Shown here: positions 14,242-30,705 of the stretch, one piece after another
How positions within the stretch are numbered: the first letter of the stretch is position 1
How the letters are laid out: every line of letters begins with the position of its first letter
NCBI RefSeq assembly: GCF_009184635.1
Contig: NZ_WELI01000007.1
Location: forward strand, 186,001-250,000
Length of the DNA: 64,000 nucleotides
From: Rudanella paleaurantiibacter
Lineage (GTDB): Bacteria; Bacteroidota; Bacteroidia; Cytophagales; Spirosomataceae
Direction of reading: 5' to 3'
Program-made: the position numbers and the translations under genes
The notes under the pieces: generated by a model
Told to the model about the DNA's origin: nothing
Databases searched by the model: none
Seen by the model: only the letters and a program-made list of their open reading frames with translations

Positions 14242-14252
14242 TTTACAGTGAA

Positions 14253-14320
14253 CAGTGAGCAACGAGCAACTAACAGTAAACAGATTCATCTGCTTACCGT
14301 TGGTTGCTCGCTGTTCACTG
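14253..14320. repeat. Long stem-loop of degenerate words between the micro-gene and rng
   Basis: Arms 14253-14285 and 14288-14320 (33 bases each) are complementary at 28 positions and separated by only two bases. Words such as acagtgaacagt and gagcaac recur, and a further copy (ttagttgttcactgtttac) follows to 14339. No T-run, so not a simple terminator; it lies in the RNase G leader. Confidence 0.75.
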
Positions 14321-14372
14321 TTAGTTGTTCACTGTTTACTTCCATCGCCATCTCTAACCGTGTCTTCATCTG

Positions 14373-21616: not shown

Positions 21617-21631
21617 GCCTTAAAGGGTAAA

Positions 21632-21683
21632 GCAGAAAGGGAGAAGGGAAACGGATAAAACCGTCTGCCTTCTCCCTTTCTGC
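21632..21683. terminator. Terminator between the haloperoxidase-like gene and radC
   Basis: Perfect 16-base arms 21632-21647 and 21668-21683; the loop has a second small hairpin (ACGG/CCGT). The arms consist of the word gagaaaggg and its complement, in the style of the word-repeat hairpins elsewhere in the window. Confidence 0.85.
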
Positions 21684-21694
21684 GTTTTGCTCTG

Positions 21695-23485: not shown

Positions 23486-24581
23486 TGTTATGTTCTTTTG
23501 CGTTTCAGCAAAATATTGTTCTGTTAAAATAGCTCCTTGCTTTAAAAGTTTAATATTTTCTTTGCAAAGTACTATATTCGTTCAAAGGTATCTATTTTTG
23601 CTCTGGTTGTATGCGTTCAGCCCACTTTTTTTTGTGGCAGAAACACAAGCCGGTGCTGCAATGAATAAGCCAAATTGGGGTTTCCACTCGCATCGGCAGA
23701 TCAATCGGTTAGCGGTTTTCACGCTGCCCGCCGAGATGATGCCTTTTTTCAAACGTCATATTGATTACCTGACCGATAATGCAGTGAATCCGGACCGTCG
23801 GCGGGTGGCCGTAGTGGGCGAGGCTCCCCGGCATTTTATTGACCTCGACGATTACCCCGATACCACAAGCGCAACCCTACCTCGCTACTACAAGGATGCA
23901 GTTAACCGATACGGAGAGGATACACTGGCTGCTCATGGCATAGTGCCCTGGCACATTCAGTTGGCCAAATACCAATTGACCGAGGCTTTCCGAACGCGTA
24001 ATGTTCGTCAGATCCTCCGATTGGCCGCCGATTTAGGGCATTATATTGCTGATGCTAACGTGCCTTTACATACTACCCGGAACTACAATGGGCAGCTGAC
24101 CAATCAGCAGGGGATTCATGGTTTTTGGGAATCGCGTTTACCGGAGTTGTTCAGCCATCAGTTCGATTTTGTTGTAGGGCCTGCCGACTACGTTGAGTCG
24201 CCCCAGAAAGCAGCCTGGCGGGCCGTTTTCCGGGCTCACGCTGCTCTTGATTCTGTATTGCGTACCGAGCAGGAGCTCACGGCCGAAGTAGGTGATACCC
24301 GTAAGTTTGGATTTGAGGACCGCAATGGAGTAACGACGAAGGTTTATTCCGAAGTGTTTTCGGCGCAGTACCACGAGCGCCTGAAAGGGCAGGTAGAGCG
24401 ACAGATGCGCGCGTCGGTGAAAATGGTCGGTGATTTCTGGTACACCTGTTGGGTAGACGCGGGGCAGCCTGACCTACGCCAACTGGCCCGGCAGGAGCTA
24501 ACCGAAGTGGATAAAAATGAAGAAGCCGCCGAGCAAAAAAGTTGGCTCAGGCGGCTCTTTATGGTTCGTTCAGAAGATTAG
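23475..24581 (+). CDS. Zinc-dependent phospholipase C-like / S1-P1 nuclease-fold protein
   Basis: The mature domain begins at Trp about residue 68 (NWGFHSHRQINRLAVF) and carries the metal ligands of the PLC/P1 nuclease fold: H-x-H near the start, HFIDLDDY (about 115), DLGHYIADANVPLHTT (about 185-200) and HGFWESRLPEL (about 215-225). In this family a Trp near the mature N-terminus binds zinc, so a signal peptide is needed; FLLWLYAFSPLFFVAE (about 41-56) would serve. The start is unsettled: ATG at 23475 overlaps the divergent gene, ATG at 23661 removes the signal, and TTG at 23598 would just include its core. It probably hydrolyses phosphate esters outside the cytosol. Confidence 0.75.
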   Translation: MRFIVMFFCVSAKYCSVKIAPCFKSLIFSLQSTIFVQRYLFLLWLYAFSPLFFVAETQAGAAMNKPNWGFHSHRQINRLAVFTLPAEMMPFFKRHIDYLTDNAVNPDRRRVAVVGEAPRHFIDLDDYPDTTSATLPRYYKDAVNRYGEDTLAAHGIVPWHIQLAKYQLTEAFRTRNVRQILRLAADLGHYIADANVPLHTTRNYNGQLTNQQGIHGFWESRLPELFSHQFDFVVGPADYVESPQKAAWRAVFRAHAALDSVLRTEQELTAEVGDTRKFGFEDRNGVTTKVYSEVFSAQYHERLKGQVERQMRASVKMVGDFWYTCWVDAGQPDLRQLARQELTEVDKNEEAAEQKSWLRRLFMVRSED

Positions 24582-24591
24582 TGAGCAGCGG

Positions 24592-24620
24592 CAGTGGGCA
24601 GTACGTTAGACTGCCTACTG
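24592..24620. terminator. Bidirectional hairpin between the phospholipase-like and M23 genes
   Basis: Arms 24592-24602 and 24610-24620 (CAGTGGGCAGT and ACTGCCTACTG) pair with one mismatch. The word cagtaggcagt is the same one that builds the hairpin at 29006-29104. Confidence 0.7.
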
Positions 24621-24624
24621 GAAT

Positions 24625-25698
24625 TTAATTCACCCGTAGCTTTTGACCAGGCCGAATCTTGGTACGCTGCGACATGTGATTTTTCCGGGCCAGTGTAGAC
24701 GCCGACATTCCGTACCGACCGGCAATTGACGAGAGTGTTTCGCCGGAGCGTACCCGGTGGAGTACTGTCCGCTTAAACTTGGGCTTAAAACTCAAATCAG
24801 AGCCCGAACTGGCGTTGCGACCTCCGCGTAGGTAGTCCCACACCTTGCTCGTGAGCAGAAAATGGTCCGAGGTAACCACGTTTTCAGGAAAAGCGTAAAT
24901 ATTGAGCGGGCTGAAGGGGTTACCCTCGTAGCGGGTTTCGTAATGGAGGTGAGCACCATAACTCCGGCCTGTGTTGCCACCAAGCCCGATTTGATCTCCC
25001 GCTTTCACCAACTGGCCCGATTCAACCAGTTGCTTCGACATGTGGCCGTAGAGTGTTTCGAGGCCGTTGTAGTGCCGAATCAGCACATACCGCCCGTACC
25101 CGTTTCCATCCCAGCCAACTATCCGCACAATACCATCGAAAGCTGCGTAAACAGGGTCACCGGTTTCGCAGTCGAGATCGGCACCGGTATGCCAACGCCC
25201 CCAGCGATAGCCGAAGTTTGAGGTGAGTTTACCCTGTTGGAGCGGGGCCGACCAGAACCGGTTGGCCGGTGGGTCGTAGAGCTTAATATCGATTACCTCG
25301 TCGAAATCAAGCGGGTTAATATTGTAAGGGTCAATATGACGGGAGTCCCAAACGGCGTAGTAATCCGCAATTTTCACCCACTCGTCGCCCACCTGAACAG
25401 AGTCAATCACTTCAACTACGCTCGTTTCGCCCTGATCGATCATGCTGGTATCTTCAGCCACAACCGGGTTCACTTCTTTTTTTGGCTCAAATTGGTTGTT
25501 GAAACGCAGGCTGGTTGTTTCCTGCTCAAATACATCGGCTTGCTTTTTCTCTTCAGTCGCCGGGAAATTGGGATTGTAGGTGGTTTTGGGCTTGATGCGT
25601 GAGTTTTTGAACAAACCCCGCTCCTGCGCCTGTGCATTCAGGGAGCTTAGGGTGAGGCATCCAAAGGCAATCAGCCAGGTAATCCGGTTTTTTATCAT
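24625..25698 (-). CDS. M23 peptidase with C-terminal LysM
   Basis: A 357-residue exported peptidoglycan hydrolase or scaffold. Signal peptide at 1-25 (ending NAQAQ). A linker with Glu/Thr/Val repeats leads to the M23 domain (about 180-285): GRWHTGADLD gives the first His/Asp zinc ligands and GAHLHYE the H-x-H. A LysM domain closes the protein (about 312-357, LHRVRSGETLSSIAGRYGMS). Both metal motifs look intact, so an active D,D-endopeptidase is likely, acting in the periplasm on cell-wall crosslinks. Its gene is 240 bases after trxB but separated by that gene's terminator. Confidence 0.93.
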   Translation of the reverse strand: MIKNRITWLIAFGCLTLSSLNAQAQERGLFKNSRIKPKTTYNPNFPATEEKKQADVFEQETTSLRFNNQFEPKKEVNPVVAEDTSMIDQGETSVVEVIDSVQVGDEWVKIADYYAVWDSRHIDPYNINPLDFDEVIDIKLYDPPANRFWSAPLQQGKLTSNFGYRWGRWHTGADLDCETGDPVYAAFDGIVRIVGWDGNGYGRYVLIRHYNGLETLYGHMSKQLVESGQLVKAGDQIGLGGNTGRSYGAHLHYETRYEGNPFSPLNIYAFPENVVTSDHFLLTSKVWDYLRGGRNASSGSDLSFKPKFKRTVLHRVRSGETLSSIAGRYGMSASTLARKNHMSQRTKIRPGQKLRVN

Positions 25699-25883
25699 CG
25701 GTTCATTCCAGTAGGCAGTTGGTCTGTAAGCCGTGTACCAGAACGAAAAAATGAACCAGGATGGGCAGTTGGCTTCGGTAGGGGAGGCCAGCTGCTCATC
25801 GGGCGTTGTTCATGAAGTGTCGTTCGGCAGGCGGGCGATCAAGATCAACCACCAGAGTTAAGTTAAGTACTGTGATATACCCG

Positions 25884-25921
25884 ATTTCAGGCCGGATAAG
25901 CGAACCTATCCGGCCTGAAAT
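25884..25921 (-). terminator. Hairpin after trxB
   Basis: Perfect 15-base arms 25884-25898 and 25907-25921, right behind the trxB stop. No long T-run on the minus strand. Confidence 0.7.
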
Positions 25922-25935
25922 GTAAAATCCGTAAA

Positions 25936-26910
25936 CTAAGCGACCATGTGCTCCTGCATTTCGAGCGTTACCAGATAACGCTCGGCGTCGAGAGCTGCCA
26001 TACAACCGGTGCCAGCCGCCGTAATGGCTTGCCGGTACACGTTGTCCTGGGCATCCCCGCAGGCAAATACGCCGGGAATGTTGGTCCGTGTGCTGCCTTT
26101 CTCGGTCAGAATGTAGCCATTGCTGTCCATGTCGAGGTAGTCTTTGAAAATATCAGTATTGGGTTTGTGACCGATAGCCACAAAAAAGCCCGTCACGTCG
26201 AGGGTGCGCTGCTCGCCCGTTACGGTATCCTGAATCAGAATGCCGTTTACTTCCTCATCGCCGAGTACTTCGAGGGTCTCGGTATTCCAGAGCACTTCGA
26301 TATTGTCTTTTGACAGAACCCGCTGCTGCATAAACCGTGAGGCCCGCATCTGATCGCGCCGAACCAGCATATACACTTTCCGGCAGATGTTAGAGAGGTA
26401 GCTGGCTTCTTCGGCAGCGGTGTCGCCCGCGCCTACAATGGCTACGTCCTGATTACGGAAGAAAAACCCGTCGCAGACAGCACAGGCCGAGACACCCCGA
26501 CCGTTCAGGCGCATTTCGGAGGGGAGGCCGAGCCATTTGGCTGAGGCTCCGGTTGAAATAATGATACTGTCGGCTGTGATTTCGTGTTTCTCGTCGACAA
26601 TAGCCCGGTGCGGACGTCCGGGGCCCGGATTGGCCTCAAACTCAACGGAGGTTACCACACCGTAGCGTACGTCAGAGCCAAACCGGCGAGCCTGCGCTTC
26701 AAGGTCCTGCATCATCTGCGGGCCATTAACGCCCTGCGGATAACCCGGAAAATTGTCGACTTCAGTGGTGATGGTCAATTGGCCACCGGGTTGGGCACCC
26801 TGGTACAAAACAGGTTGCATGTTGGCCCGTGCGGCATAAATAGCTGCTGTATATCCGGCGGGTCCGGAGCCAATAATAAGGCACTTTACGTGTTCGGGAG
26901 TCATCGTCAC
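25936..26910 (-). CDS. trxB: Thioredoxin reductase
   Basis: A 324-residue flavoenzyme of normal length that reduces thioredoxin with NADPH. FAD site GSGPAGYTAAIYAAR (about 14-28), the redox pair in ACAVCDG (about 140-146), NADPH site GAGDTAAEEASYL (about 158-170), and the closing FAD motif GVFACGDAQD (about 286-295). Monocistronic: a hairpin follows and 230 bases of non-coding sequence precede it. On the minus strand a near-consensus -7 (GAACTTTG) lies at about 27009. Confidence 0.96.
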   Translation of the reverse strand: MTMTPEHVKCLIIGSGPAGYTAAIYAARANMQPVLYQGAQPGGQLTITTEVDNFPGYPQGVNGPQMMQDLEAQARRFGSDVRYGVVTSVEFEANPGPGRPHRAIVDEKHEITADSIIISTGASAKWLGLPSEMRLNGRGVSACAVCDGFFFRNQDVAIVGAGDTAAEEASYLSNICRKVYMLVRRDQMRASRFMQQRVLSKDNIEVLWNTETLEVLGDEEVNGILIQDTVTGEQRTLDVTGFFVAIGHKPNTDIFKDYLDMDSNGYILTEKGSTRTNIPGVFACGDAQDNVYRQAITAAGTGCMAALDAERYLVTLEMQEHMVA

Positions 26911-27142
26911 TCAGAAAAGAATGTTGTCAGAATCAATCAGAACAGCCGCTTTTAGTACAAGGCAATAGATGTCACAAGCTACCGTTCGTAACGACAACAT
27001 TGGCAAAGTTCAAAAAAATTCCTCGTGAAACCAAGCAGATTAGTAGACCAAACCAATGTCTTAACCTTATTTTAGCCTCATTATGGGCAAGTTACCCTCC
27101 ATTGCAGAGAGTCGCTGATCGTAGGTGTATACCGAAAATATG

Positions 27143-29107
27143 CTACAGGATACGCCACTCGATACGCCGGTTCTGACGCCGATTTTCGTCGCTGGTATTG
27201 GGCACCAAAGGGCGGGTTTTACCAAATCCAGCCGATTTGATCCGGGTGGGTTCGATACCGGCTTCGGTCAGGTAGGTGACCACGGTCTGAGCCCGTTTTT
27301 TCGACAACGTTAGGTTGGCCGCAGCATCGCCCTGATCATCGGTATGCCCCGACACTTCGATAGTTACCGAGGGGTTCAACTTCAGAAAATCGGCTAACCG
27401 ATTTAATTCAGTCCGTGACTTATCGGCGAGGTCGTACCGCCCCGATTCGAAAAACAGGTTGTTGAGCGTCTCTTTGCTCGTAGGGCCAATCGGTTCGAGG
27501 GCTACCGGAAGGGCTACACCACTGCTCGTTTCTTTGGTTTTCTGGCTAAAATCGAACGAAAGACTTTTGAACAGGTAGCCGGGGCTACTCACGTACAGGG
27601 CGTACTCGCCTTCGGTGGGGAGCACAATGGCGTACTGCCCGGTTTGTGCATCGGACTTAACTCGCGAGATGGTCTGTTTGGTGGCCAGGTCGATTAGTTC
27701 AACGGTGGCCGCAACGGGTTTCTGGCTTTTGCCGTTGGCTATTATCCCTTTGAGGTAACTAACCGGCTTTACCCGCTCGCGTAGCGACTCAGGCATATCG
27801 AATACGTAAATCCGTGACCGTTGCGAAATGCCCTCTTTCTGTTCCTCGAATGAATAATAAGCCCGTGCACCGTTGGCCGACACAAACAGCGATGCCTGAT
27901 CCTCAGCCGTATTGATCGGATACCCCAGATTGGTGGGTTGGTTCCAGCGTACCGGGGCCGTTGTGACCAGACTGTCGCTCACAAAAAGGTCGTAGCCCCC
28001 CATGCCGATGTGCCCCTCCGACGCAAAAAACAGGGTTTGGCCGTTGGCATGAATAAACGGTGATGCCTCGTTGAAGGTGGTATTGATGGGCGTCCCCATA
28101 TTGACGGGGGCCAGCCAGTTGCCTTGTTCATCGGCATCGGTACGCCAGATATCGCGTTTGCCCTGACCACCGGGCCGGTCCGACACAAAATATAACCGCC
28201 GACCATCGGCCGACAGGGCGGGTTGCGATTCGTAATAGCGGCTGTTTACCGTGGGGCCGAGGTTCTGGGGTTCAGACCATTCATTGCCGGTGCGTCGGGT
28301 AATGTACAGGTCGCAGCTACCCATTCCTTTACGGCCCTGGCAGGCGGCAAACACCAGGGTGCGTCCATCGGCCGAAAGGCTGGGCGTACCTTCGTTATCG
28401 ACCGTGTTTATATTGGGTGATAGCGAAACGGGAGGCTGCCAGGTTTCACCGTTGAAGGTGGTGGTAAACAGGTCTTCGTCGCCCTCAGGCTTCAAAACCG
28501 TAAACACCAGGGTTTGCTCGTCGGCAGTAAGTACAGGAAAATATTGCGAGGGGGTAGTTTGCAATGCCGACGAGAGTGGGCGGGGCGTTACGGCCTGTGG
28601 GCGTTGGGTAGCTTCCTGCCCGAAGCGGGCGGTGGCCAGCAGCCGCTCTACGCGCAATGCCTGTGCCGACTGCGGGGCAAACAAGGTTACGTATTTTTCT
28701 AAATAGGGGATCGCTTCGGTGTAGCGGCCGAGCCGGAGCAGCAGATTACTTAACGATTGGTAGGCCGGTGCCGTTGTGGGGGCATCGGGCTGAAGCCGCA
28801 CCGCTTCGCGGTAGGCCAGCAGGGCGGGCTCTACCCGTTTGGTAAACTCGTACAGCTGCCCGAGTTTCAGGTGAGCATCGGCAAAGGTAGGCTCCCGTTT
28901 TATGGCTTCCTGCATAAACGCGATGGCTTCAGTGGCTTTACGTTCGCCAAAGAGCTTCATCGATTGCTCGTAGAGCTGTTTGGTGCGGGAATCCTGAGAG
29001 AAAGAGTAGGCAGTAGGCAGCAGGCAGTAGGCAAAAAAGAGGAGCCAGAATTTATACTGTCTGGTTTTTTCTGCCCACTGCTTACTGACTACGGCCCACT
29101 GCTTCAT
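27143..29107 (-). CDS. OmpA-family protein with TPR and PD40 (WD40-like) propeller
   Basis: A 654-residue envelope protein: signal peptide about 1-36 (ending AYSFSQ), TPR units about 40-145, a PD40 beta-propeller about 165-440 with repeated D-G-R-xL-xF/Y-xS motifs (SADGRTLVFAACQG, SADGRRLYFVSDRPG), a carboxypeptidase-like sandwich about 445-540, and an OmpA-type peptidoglycan-binding domain about 545-654 (VTIEVSGHTDDQGD, NLTLSKKRAQTV). This layout is common in T9SS- and porin-associated Bacteroidota proteins. The ATG overlaps the queE stop by four bases (ATGA), so translation is likely coupled. The signal peptide is encoded by a word-repeat hairpin (29006-29104). Confidence 0.9.
   Translation of the reverse strand: MKQWAVVSKQWAEKTRQYKFWLLFFAYCLLPTAYSFSQDSRTKQLYEQSMKLFGERKATEAIAFMQEAIKREPTFADAHLKLGQLYEFTKRVEPALLAYREAVRLQPDAPTTAPAYQSLSNLLLRLGRYTEAIPYLEKYVTLFAPQSAQALRVERLLATARFGQEATQRPQAVTPRPLSSALQTTPSQYFPVLTADEQTLVFTVLKPEGDEDLFTTTFNGETWQPPVSLSPNINTVDNEGTPSLSADGRTLVFAACQGRKGMGSCDLYITRRTGNEWSEPQNLGPTVNSRYYESQPALSADGRRLYFVSDRPGGQGKRDIWRTDADEQGNWLAPVNMGTPINTTFNEASPFIHANGQTLFFASEGHIGMGGYDLFVSDSLVTTAPVRWNQPTNLGYPINTAEDQASLFVSANGARAYYSFEEQKEGISQRSRIYVFDMPESLRERVKPVSYLKGIIANGKSQKPVAATVELIDLATKQTISRVKSDAQTGQYAIVLPTEGEYALYVSSPGYLFKSLSFDFSQKTKETSSGVALPVALEPIGPTSKETLNNLFFESGRYDLADKSRTELNRLADFLKLNPSVTIEVSGHTDDQGDAAANLTLSKKRAQTVVTYLTEAGIEPTRIKSAGFGKTRPLVPNTSDENRRQNRRIEWRIL
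29006..29104. repeat. Word-repeat hairpin inside the OmpA-family gene's signal-peptide region
   Basis: Words gtaggca and cagtaggcag repeat from 29006 to 29038; the complementary words (ttttttctgcccactg, cttactgactacgg, cccactgct) run from 29065 to 29104. The best-paired section joins 29021-29037 with 29065-29083, and a CCAGA/TCTGG pair lies in the loop. Confidence 0.7.
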
Positions 29108-29739
29108 GGAATATCCATGTACTTGTGGGTTTGCAACGATACCTGCCATTGCGGATTACTTTTTACGTACTCAACGATGAGCGGCAGCATTTCTTTTGTT
29201 CGACTCCATTCGGTTTGCAGAAACAGCCGACAATCGGGGCGCAGATAGGGCACAAATGACTCTGCAAAGGCAAAATCCGACCGGTTATAAATAATTACTT
29301 TTAATTCGTGGGCCTGCTCGTAAATGGCAGGGTTGGGCTTTTTAAACTTCTTTGGTGAGAAGCAAATCCAGTCCCAGCTACCGGTTACGGCCTCGCATAC
29401 GCCCGATGTTTCGATGTTTGTTTTGAACCCGGCTGCCTGCAAGGCCTGCGTAAGGTGGGTAAGGTCATGCATGAGGGGTTCGCCCCCCGTCACAACGGCC
29501 ATGCGGCCGGGATGAGCAGCCGCTTCGGTCACAATCTGATCAATAGACAGGTGCGGGTGAGCGTTTACATCCCACGACTCCTTCACATCGCACCAGTGGC
29601 AACCCACGTCGCAGCCCCCCAGCCGGATGAAGTAAGCCGCCCGGCCGCTGTGTGCCCCTTCGCCCTGTAGGGTGTAAAAGGCTTCCATTACGGGTAGGGT
29701 GGCAGTGGGTATAACGGGTTGATTTAGTGTCGTATTCAT
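29104..29739 (-). CDS. queE: 7-carboxy-7-deazaguanine synthase
   Basis: A 211-residue radical SAM enzyme that turns 6-carboxytetrahydropterin into 7-carboxy-7-deazaguanine for queuosine synthesis. The cluster motif is C-x3-C-x2-C (GGCDVGCHWCD, about 42-52), preceded by FYTLQGEGAHSGRAAYFIRL, the QueE substrate and SAM region. The KKFKKPNP stretch and the C-terminal EVVK-like end match Bacteroidota QueE. I use the ATG at 29739, since the -7 element lies at 29744-29751; a longer start at 29793 would be upstream of the promoter. It overlaps the OmpA-family gene by four bases. Confidence 0.93.
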   Translation of the reverse strand: MNTTLNQPVIPTATLPVMEAFYTLQGEGAHSGRAAYFIRLGGCDVGCHWCDVKESWDVNAHPHLSIDQIVTEAAAHPGRMAVVTGGEPLMHDLTHLTQALQAAGFKTNIETSGVCEAVTGSWDWICFSPKKFKKPNPAIYEQAHELKVIIYNRSDFAFAESFVPYLRPDCRLFLQTEWSRTKEMLPLIVEYVKSNPQWQVSLQTHKYMDIP

Positions 29740-29743
29740 TGGA

Positions 29744-29751
29744 CAAAGATA
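29744..29751 (-). promoter_or_regulatory. -7 element TATCTTTG directly before queE
   Basis: Exact TAnnTTTG whose last base is five bases before the ATG. It would give an almost leaderless mRNA. No -33 TTG at the usual distance. Confidence 0.4.
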
Positions 29752-29834
29752 CGGATTATAGGCAAGCTGGTAGAAGTAGGGTAGAGCCGTCAACGCACTT
29801 CGGTCGGTTTTTCAGACCATCTATCCAATTCCGA

Positions 29835-29865
29835 TTGACTATCTGGGTCGCCCTCTTTAGCTTTG
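29835..29865 (+). promoter_or_regulatory. Promoter of the lipoprotein gene at 29914
   Basis: TTG at 29835-29837, 20 bases, TAGCTTTG at 29858-29865. Predicts a start near 29872 and a leader of about 42 bases. Confidence 0.6.
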
Positions 29866-29913
29866 GTTAGTACAACCAATACCAACGAAACAATAGCCAC
29901 AACAAATACGGTC

Positions 29914-30705
29914 ATGAAACGAAAAGCCTGGGTACTATATACGGCTCTGGGGGTAGGCAGTGCGCTGAGTCTGAGTGGGTGTGCGTCGGGCAAATATCTG
30001 CAACTTACGCCCGTTACGGGCGATGTAGCGCATGTTGAGGGGCGTATGGTAACGAAAGCCGAAGCGGATAGCCTGGTGGTAGTAGCTTCGTTTGAGCGCG
30101 AAGACATGGAATACCTGGCGATGGATATTGAAATCAAAAACCGATCGAGCCGACCGATGCGTATTGACCCGACTCGCTTTCGGTACGTGGCCCTTACCGC
30201 AAACGAAGATACCCTCCGCGAGTCGCACAACCCGGCATTGGCAGTGGCTCGTACAGCCGCCGACCCAACTGCCGAGAGTGAGCGGGTGAAGACCAAAGTA
30301 GCCCGCGAAGAACGACGCCTGAAAACGGCCCGTATCATCAATACGGTGTTGCTGGTGGCCGCTGTAGCCAGTGATGTTTCGTCGTCTACGCGCCGACAGT
30401 CGGTCGAGAGTCGATTCCGTAACCGCGTGGCCCACAACAACGCCTACCAACTGATTCAAGCCAAACGGGTTATTGACCACGGGGTATTTGCCGACCGGAT
30501 GCAGCAGTACGGTTTTGAAGCTTACCGCTGGAACGAACTGGCCCTGCAACGAACGTACATTGAGCCGGGCGAATCGGTGCGGGGGTTCGTTTATCTGCCC
30601 AAAGCCAATGCCGCGCAGTTTATTCGGCTGAATTACCCGGTGTCGGAGCAGGGCGAGGTTTCGCTCGTGTTCAGTCAGGAAATGGTGGCTCGAAAAAGAA
30701 AGTAG
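29914..30705 (+). CDS. Predicted lipoprotein of unknown function
   Basis: A 263-residue protein with a basic n-region (MKRKAWVLY), hydrophobic core and lipobox LSLSGC. The mature protein has a beta-rich first half with the segment DMEYLAMDIEIKNRSSRPMR, a helical Arg/Glu-rich middle (about 120-150) followed by a short hydrophobic stretch (IINTVLLVAAVASDV), and a C-terminal beta part IEPGESVRGFVYLPK. The last motif is typical of DUF4352-like immunoglobulin-fold proteins, but I would not name a family. Promoter and terminator make it a single-gene unit. A longer in-frame start at 29863 overlaps the promoter. Confidence 0.75.
   Translation: MKRKAWVLYTALGVGSALSLSGCASGKYLQLTPVTGDVAHVEGRMVTKAEADSLVVVASFEREDMEYLAMDIEIKNRSSRPMRIDPTRFRYVALTANEDTLRESHNPALAVARTAADPTAESERVKTKVAREERRLKTARIINTVLLVAAVASDVSSSTRRQSVESRFRNRVAHNNAYQLIQAKRVIDHGVFADRMQQYGFEAYRWNELALQRTYIEPGESVRGFVYLPKANAAQFIRLNYPVSEQGEVSLVFSQEMVARKRK

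Follow-up and report, generated by a model that had tools for sequence, protein, structure and literature searches.

What provides the export signal of a conserved envelope protein when the DNA in front of its mature part is a repeat hairpin, and what becomes of that signal in related species? This question is raised by a window of 64,000 nucleotides (nt) from Rudanella paleaurantiibacter (contig NZ_WELI01000007.1, positions 186,001 to 250,000), in which a gene for an envelope protein of the TPR-PD40-OmpA family directly follows queE (7-carboxy-7-deazaguanine synthase) on the minus strand. Most of the stretch from the queE stop codon to the mature start of the OmpA-family protein is occupied by a hairpin built of short repeated words. 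Fast divergence of signal peptides is usually ascribed to point mutation under weak constraint. From the sequence comparisons described here, word hairpins at the front of some envelope-protein genes are probably translated as export signals, which are exchanged between species while the mature protein is kept.

The hairpin at the queE junction

A preliminary description of this locus had located a word-repeat hairpin at 29006-29107, and such a hairpin was present at 29000-29105. Folded on the minus strand, which is the mRNA sense of the OmpA-family gene, it reaches -52.9 kcal/mol with a z-score (z) of -7.2, and none of 200 shuffled sequences was as stable; the same hairpin folded as plus-strand DNA reaches -23.2 kcal/mol (z -4.3). 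The inverted-repeat score is 20.4 and lag 7 was the best among lags 3-12. The arms consist of a degenerate 7-nt word, GCAGTAG/GCAGTGG, with direct repeats at spacings of 14 and 21. The arms code as had been described, i.e. for a charged n-region followed by a hydrophobic core, and the matching word reported at 24592-24620 was recovered as a related word at 24591-24621. The features concerned are listed below, each with its basis in brackets (ORF, open reading frame; aa, amino acids).

27143..29149, minus strand: gene of the TPR-PD40-OmpA family envelope protein, 668 aa (ORF, Pfam, NCBIfam)
29104..29793, minus strand: queE, directly upstream, its stop codon forming the edge of the variable stretch (ORF; NCBIfam TIGR04322, 2.6e-36, under the cut-off)
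29147..29149, minus strand: probable start codon ATG within the 3' end of queE, 43 nt before the queE stop (position, frame and codon bias in orthologs)
29105..29107, minus strand: alternative start codon ATG overlapping the queE stop (ATGA) (sequence)
29000..29105, minus strand: heptamer-word hairpin, in frame as the predicted signal peptide (RNA fold, inverted-repeat score)
29067..29105, minus strand: 5' arm of the hairpin in the mRNA sense, coding for the charged lead-in KQWAVVSKQWAEK (fold and codon table)
29045..29064, minus strand: small inner stem-loop at the head of the hairpin (fold)
29000..29038, minus strand: 3' arm of the hairpin, coding for most of the hydrophobic core (FAYCLLPTAYSF) (fold and codon table)
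28994..28999, minus strand: putative signal peptidase I site AYSFS↓Q (by eye, from the translation and the ...AQ/...SQ endings in orthologs)
24591..24621, no strand assigned: second copy of a related word, a small hairpin between two convergent genes and not at a gene start (sequence and ORFs)

The charged n-region, the hydrophobic core and the cleavage-site pattern were recognized by eye, and the protein family fits a Sec-exported protein; the nearest NCBIfam models are PorE and the CHU_0125 OmpA model, with scores under their cut-offs. By its position, its hydropathy, the look of the cleavage site and the protein family, the hairpin appears to code for the predicted signal peptide, comprising the hydrophobic part together with the charged lead-in.

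Orthologs, start codon and turnover of the signal

Orthologs were found in 89 of 222 genomes of the family at E ≤ 1e-180, and the junction was read in 70 of them, including the window's own gene (L171). From the 19 orthologs outside these counts, six were seen (G008, G010, G015, G017, G018 and G022), G010 with a clear hairpin. Adding the named record L091 to the 58 queE-linked orthologs among the 70 gave a queE-linked set of 59. This record is titled Flavobacterium sp. SUN052, and its ortholog is 84% identical to that of the window and closer to it than the named Spirosoma records listed; the title may be a misidentification.

The signal stretch reached a gapped inverted-repeat score ≥ 14 in 22/70 orthologs, compared with 0/70 at each of five control stretches (0/350). 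Lag 7 was the best lag in 32/70 signal stretches and in 0-5/70 of the controls. An RNA z < -3 was obtained for 22/70 signal stretches, whereas three control stretches gave 0/70, 2/70 and 3/70; the ortholog values reach -13.3. Both the inverted-repeat and the fold measure were satisfied by 16 orthologs, and either of them by 28. All 22 inverted repeats lie within the 58 queE-linked orthologs, none among the other 12. The arms are long and near-perfect, and the words differ from species to species. The signal peptides of many orthologs are mutually unrelated, and many of them are word repeats, e.g. LLTFHFSLLTFHSSL, FILIFHFSFLIIHFSF, LLITLLLAPCSLLF and LFSLLPFLLPPFL. The frame of the gene is open through 22/22 hairpins, compared with 9/44 for the other two sense frames and 20/66 for the antisense frames.

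Hairpin presence was placed on a quick tree of the 58 orthologs, which was built from QueE and the mature N-terminus with the signal excluded. At least 14 gains or losses were obtained; this number refers to presence only, leaving aside changes of word among hairpin bearers, and is approximate since 15 forks of the tree are open.

The replacement was followed by comparing the window genome with G001, the relative nearest to it. Identity amounts to 96% between the mature proteins; in the DNA, the two genomes agree in all of the last 60 nt of queE and at 265 of the first 300 nt of the mature part. The spacers between these flanks (104 and 134 nt) agree at 60/102 aligned positions, which is no better than shuffled DNA (mean 0.602), and the divergence begins at the queE stop codon. 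A strong inverted repeat is absent from the G001 junction (score 8.0, z -1.6). Judged by this alignment, the predicted signal is replaced while the mature protein is nearly unchanged. An alignment with close relatives and a search of related genomes had both been proposed in the preliminary description; the search brought up other hairpin words in the signal stretches of orthologs and of other genes. The central idea of the description was upheld.

Translation of the spacer depends on where the gene starts. The ATG at 29107-29105, which had been implied as the start, is probably not the real one, and the in-frame ATG at 29149-29147 within queE is better supported. A start candidate in frame and 43 nt before the queE stop was present in 59/59 queE-linked orthologs (ATG 53, GTG 6). 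The codon that decides between ATG and GTG precedes a QueE Trp codon and was CAA in 53, CAG in 4 and AAG in 2 of the 59 orthologs; as a control, the other Gln codons of the same queE genes gave CAA:CAG 379:354, and two neighboring positions gave 34:23 and 27:32. The distance from the queE stop to the mature start varies from 65 to 137 nt, yet it is 2 modulo 3 in 59/59 orthologs, and the same holds for L178, a sixtieth queE-linked ortholog. Between the queE stop and the position 54 nt before the mature start, 27/59 orthologs contain no ATG, GTG or TTG. Thus, the OmpA-family gene probably starts inside queE (29149), with the start fixed there, and whatever sequence follows the queE stop would be translated as a consequence. 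The preliminary description had held that intergenic repeats become signal peptides by start-codon choice; this part did not stand, as the candidate start is constant and it is the sequence after the stop which turns over. It had also named two outcomes contrary to its idea, i.e. an identical signal kept by relatives and a true start downstream of the hairpin. The relatives seen carry different signals, and the open frames and constant phase speak against the later start. An annotation from ATG 29107 would make the OmpA-family gene too short.

Word hairpins in other genes and across the genomes

For the lipoprotein LptE, 28 genomes gave a match and 20 loci were read. The signal stretch scored ≥ 14 in 5/20 orthologs, compared with 0/40 control stretches (control maximum 10.3), and strong period-7 repeats were present in the LptE signals of G001 and G003 in addition to these five. 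In the seven repeat-bearing LptE genes, the DNA between the stop codon of the upstream gene and the lipobox Cys consists largely of repeats, and the end of that upstream gene contains an in-frame ATG; we take the upstream gene product to have a C-terminus reminiscent of sigma-54 regulators. The spacer is 1 modulo 3 in 7/7 of these loci, which were picked for the check. In these sequence features, the predicted architecture of LptE is the same as that of queE-ompA. The number of 7-mers common to the LptE and OmpA-family signal stretches averaged 6.5 within a genome and 1.76 between genomes (permutation p 0.0003, 14 genomes). The words may accordingly be characteristic of a genome and not of a particular gene.

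Other genes were sought by searching the 222 genomes of the family with three idealized repeat peptides. Among the matches listed, 14 loci were read; these were chosen for stop-free frames of ≥ 190 aa in all but one case (138 aa). At least six further hairpin-type signals were found at the N-termini of exported-looking proteins (6/14 loci), a count which is biased because the peptide queries are themselves signal-like in shape. In some of the six, the hydrophobic second arm alone is evident. The proteins with a hairpin-type signal are:

PorZ (NCBIfam NF052228, 2.6e-140)
STN-domain protein
M23 protein like EnvC
PIG-L protein
pectate-lyase-like protein (NF041900, under the cut-off)
putative lipoprotein without family match

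Seven of the 14 loci were discarded, as their frames ran in upstream of the real start, were antisense, consisted of low-complexity arrays or gave no clear protein. Separately, L316 (G084:C335:8410 onward) contains a very long heptamer array which reads as FIIHYSL repeats in a 281-aa open frame.

The words are dispersed over the genome. Allowing at most one mismatch, the 12-mer GGCAGTAGGCAG had 127 matches in the genome, compared with 16 for the reversed control, and GCAGTAGGCAG (at most two mismatches) had 34 matches in the 64-kb window, compared with 13.7 expected. Hairpin scans covered G000, G006, G001, G002, G218 and the window (~2 Mb), and junctions were counted in six samples (1.66 Mb). 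The hairpins outside genes were distributed as 83 in convergent (216 junctions), 10 in divergent (214) and 120 in co-directional positions (903), and many of them span the co-directional gap from stop to start to within a few bases. Fifteen hairpins of the scans were classed as N-terminal and open; four of these were judged to be signals, one (a short palindrome within a G001 signal region) was ambiguous, and the others were assigned to positions before the start. Three of the signal hairpins (window, G006 and G002) were known beforehand.

The first arm contains > 60% purines in 94/185 hairpins and < 40% in 15/185. As a palindrome keeps the order of its arms on both strands, the codons read first tend to be rich in purines (Lys, Glu, Arg, Gly) and those read second rich in pyrimidines (Leu, Phe, Ser, Pro), in either direction of reading. 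Furthermore, 7 is not a multiple of 3, hence an array of 7-nt words yields the same 7-residue repeat in every frame. Most frames of these elements contain stop codons: 41 purine-first heptamer hairpins offered 246 frames, 47 of which were open. According to a crude hydropathy rule, 14/47 open frames (30%) were signal-like; the corresponding shares were 14% for intergenic DNA, 10% for shuffled hairpins and 9% after swapping of the arms. From this comparison, the arm order is favorable, but much must be due to selection for an open frame.

Explanations and precedents

In the explanation favored here, the window hairpin would be one of many dispersed word hairpins which lie mainly outside genes and are often packed between one stop codon and the next start. 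With the downstream gene starting inside queE, the sequence past the queE stop would become the N-terminus of the OmpA-family protein. The first arm, usually purine-rich, would give the charged lead-in, its pyrimidine-rich complement would give the hydrophobic stretch, and both together would form the signal peptide. Such elements may originate by insertion or by local repeat growth after the stop codon. The cassette from the stop to the mature start would then be exchanged as a whole from species to species, often with a word that is common in the respective genome, while the open frame, the charged-then-hydrophobic order and the cleavage site (the lipobox Cys in LptE) are retained. The hairpin peptide would direct export, and selection would keep those segments which are open and charged-then-hydrophobic.

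A broader proposal, on which our judgment is evenly divided, is that bacteria of this family possess a stock of signal peptides that renews itself. At operon junctions, word hairpins would form or integrate immediately behind stop codons, and wherever a gene begins within the preceding one, they would become its Sec- or lipoprotein-type signal. Since a palindrome reads alike in either orientation and a 7-nt array alike in each frame, a stop-free element would work in any frame and direction. The signals of conserved, probably essential envelope proteins would thereby be swapped wholesale over short times.

Several observations weigh against the favored explanation. An inverted repeat scoring ≥ 14 is absent in 48/70 orthologs, among them that of G001, the nearest relative, and all 12 orthologs without a recognized queE link, and the counts are not independent trials because the 70 species are related. 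Either ATG or GTG is imposed at the proposed start by the QueE Trp codon. Hence, the presence of a start codon alone proves nothing, and the support for 29149 is confined to the codon bias, the fixed phase and the absence of other starts. The 7-mer sharing between LptE and OmpA-family signals is driven mainly by G000 and G010. In the ~2 Mb of scans, five new in-frame hairpins were internal and one was a signal (LptE of G001). One of the 14 loci read for other genes is an internal insertion as well, i.e. a heptamer hairpin in frame within a length-variable loop of a CrtD-like desaturase (L321, G208). Finally, the share of purine-first heptamer hairpins with any signal-like frame is 22%, compared with 20% for intergenic DNA. 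The earlier view of such a hairpin as a ready-made export signal is weakly supported.

The internal cases would be expected from ordinary tolerance, a view in which hairpins of a neutral or selfish nature simply persist at those sites, i.e. the signal region and some loops, at which a protein withstands an insertion; the CrtD loop that carries the hairpin in G208 does vary in length among relatives. Tolerance alone leaves the charged-arm-first order and the open frame in every case unexplained, and it is compatible with exchanged hairpin signals, as it concerns the cause rather than the fact. We consider it a serious possibility, if a little short of an even chance. Rather unlikely, in our estimate, is that the hairpin is kept for an RNA function at the operon junction (translation uncoupling, mRNA processing or stability), with signal coding as the mere price of its position in a gene. 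The hairpins are indeed mostly outside genes, they tend to follow genes, as the convergent and divergent counts indicate, and many fill co-directional gaps a few bases from stop and start. However, the sense strand is the more stable one in 17/28 ortholog signal stretches with z < -2.5, no consistent strand preference appears among 28 close-packed junction hairpins (15 favor sense, 11 antisense), and many orthologs have no hairpin at the queE-ompA junction.

A true start 3' of the hairpin, with the hairpin as an untranslated spacer, is very improbable and was rejected as largely refuted. Hairpins of this kind at other junctions are usually untranslated and their frames are closed, whereas here the frame is open in every hairpin, the phase is fixed, and in nearly half of the orthologs (27/59) the core is preceded by no other start codon. 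Translation in the window from the next in-frame ATG, which is located past the mature start, would yield an envelope protein lacking a signal. A chance origin, in which Leu/Phe-rich signals with repetitive DNA produce compositional pseudo-hairpins, has hardly any likelihood either. Some purine/pyrimidine hairpins do have a modest z against dinucleotide shuffles (e.g. L174, -1.3). The counts at the control stretches, the fold z, the long near-perfect arms of species-specific words and a period of 7, which is not produced by codon structure, led to the rejection of such an artifact.

If exchanged hairpin signals are the correct explanation, the signals of conserved envelope proteins would be replaced en bloc and repeatedly, out of the repeats resident in the same genome, and neither flank would be affected. 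Nature would then have attached a series of unrelated signals to a single mature protein, and these natural replicates would allow minimal rules of export to be tested. Genes which start inside their upstream neighbor can carry mis-annotated N-termini, and repeat hairpins regarded as intergenic may be coding.

Mobile repeats of Yersinia (RU-2/YPAL) and of enterobacteria (RU-1) give rise to predicted signal peptides or to membrane segments (Delihas 2007, PMC2759123; PMC2229807), the main case of a repeat within a predicted signal peptide being RU-2 in Yersinia YPO1552 (PMC2759123, PMC2229807). There too, similar sequences in other genera have unrelated signals (PMC2759123, PMC2229807). RU-2/RU-1 is a defined repeat of ~168 bp which contributes a part of the signal, and the proteins concerned are mostly small or putative. 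In contrast, many short words are seen here, forming most of the signal in conserved envelope proteins (LptE, PorZ, OmpA-like), with repeated turnover at one site and a probable start inside the upstream gene. Rickettsia palindromic elements are found in frame in conserved proteins without destroying them (Ogata et al. 2000, via PMC2229807), so that in-frame palindromic repeats are tolerated by conserved proteins in both cases; they are described there as a recognized repeat family in many kinds of genes, whereas the present elements are found in signal peptides and have a common sequence limited to the word plan.

Heptamer repeats of the word TAACTGA occur close to start codons in marine Beggiatoaceae, some Cyanobacteria and Bacteroidetes (PMC4679880). 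They likewise have 7-nt units, are mostly intergenic and lie near starts, but they are direct repeats of a single word and are proposed to be regulator binding sites; the term 'signal peptide' is absent from the main text of that paper (PMC4679880). Palindromic amphipathic repeat coding elements (PARCEL; PMC2996958) are also protein-coding palindromic DNA in membrane proteins of some taxa, but they are tandem 25-residue repeats and not signal peptides (PMC2996958). Stem loops of IS605 are linked to lipoprotein genes of Borrelia (PMC2775950); these are dispersed and attached to lipoprotein genes as well, but lie at gene 3' ends and are not translated as signals (PMC2775950). No report of heptamer-word hairpin signal peptides or of their turnover in conserved envelope proteins was found in the open-access literature searched, which leaves most subscription papers and all bioRxiv preprints outside. 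A precedent exists in the enterobacterial mobile repeats in predicted signal peptides (PMC2759123).

Other identities of the hairpin were considered. An intrinsic terminator was rejected, as by eye no long U run follows the stem on its 3' side in the mRNA sense and the frame runs on for 618 codons. A structured RNA of the Rfam type was excluded with no family match up to E 1 across 24000-30500 of the window. A common consensus as in miniature inverted-repeat transposable elements was not encountered: the words vary between species and between copies, and the recurring part is a short unit, mostly of 7 nt. Two Y1 transposase genes are present in the genome, and repetitive extragenic palindromic (REP) elements of RAYT transposases were ruled out by the words tested, as six typed words were absent from both Y1 loci (~3.3 kb each); one of the two is accompanied by copies of another palindrome.

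Further observations concern individual elements. At L405 (1877-2054), next to a Y1 (RAYT-type) transposase gene, a palindrome of another kind (CTACCGATGTTGTGTCCCTACGGGACG type) is present in several inverted copies. The loop of CrtD that carries the heptamer hairpin in G208 is occupied in the relative G219 (L412) by another insert, in which Arg, Lys and Glu are abundant. Two further hairpins were located outside genes in the window, at 14251-14322 (AACAGTGAGCAACGAGCAAC type) and at 21629-21686 (AGAAAGGGAGAAGGG type).

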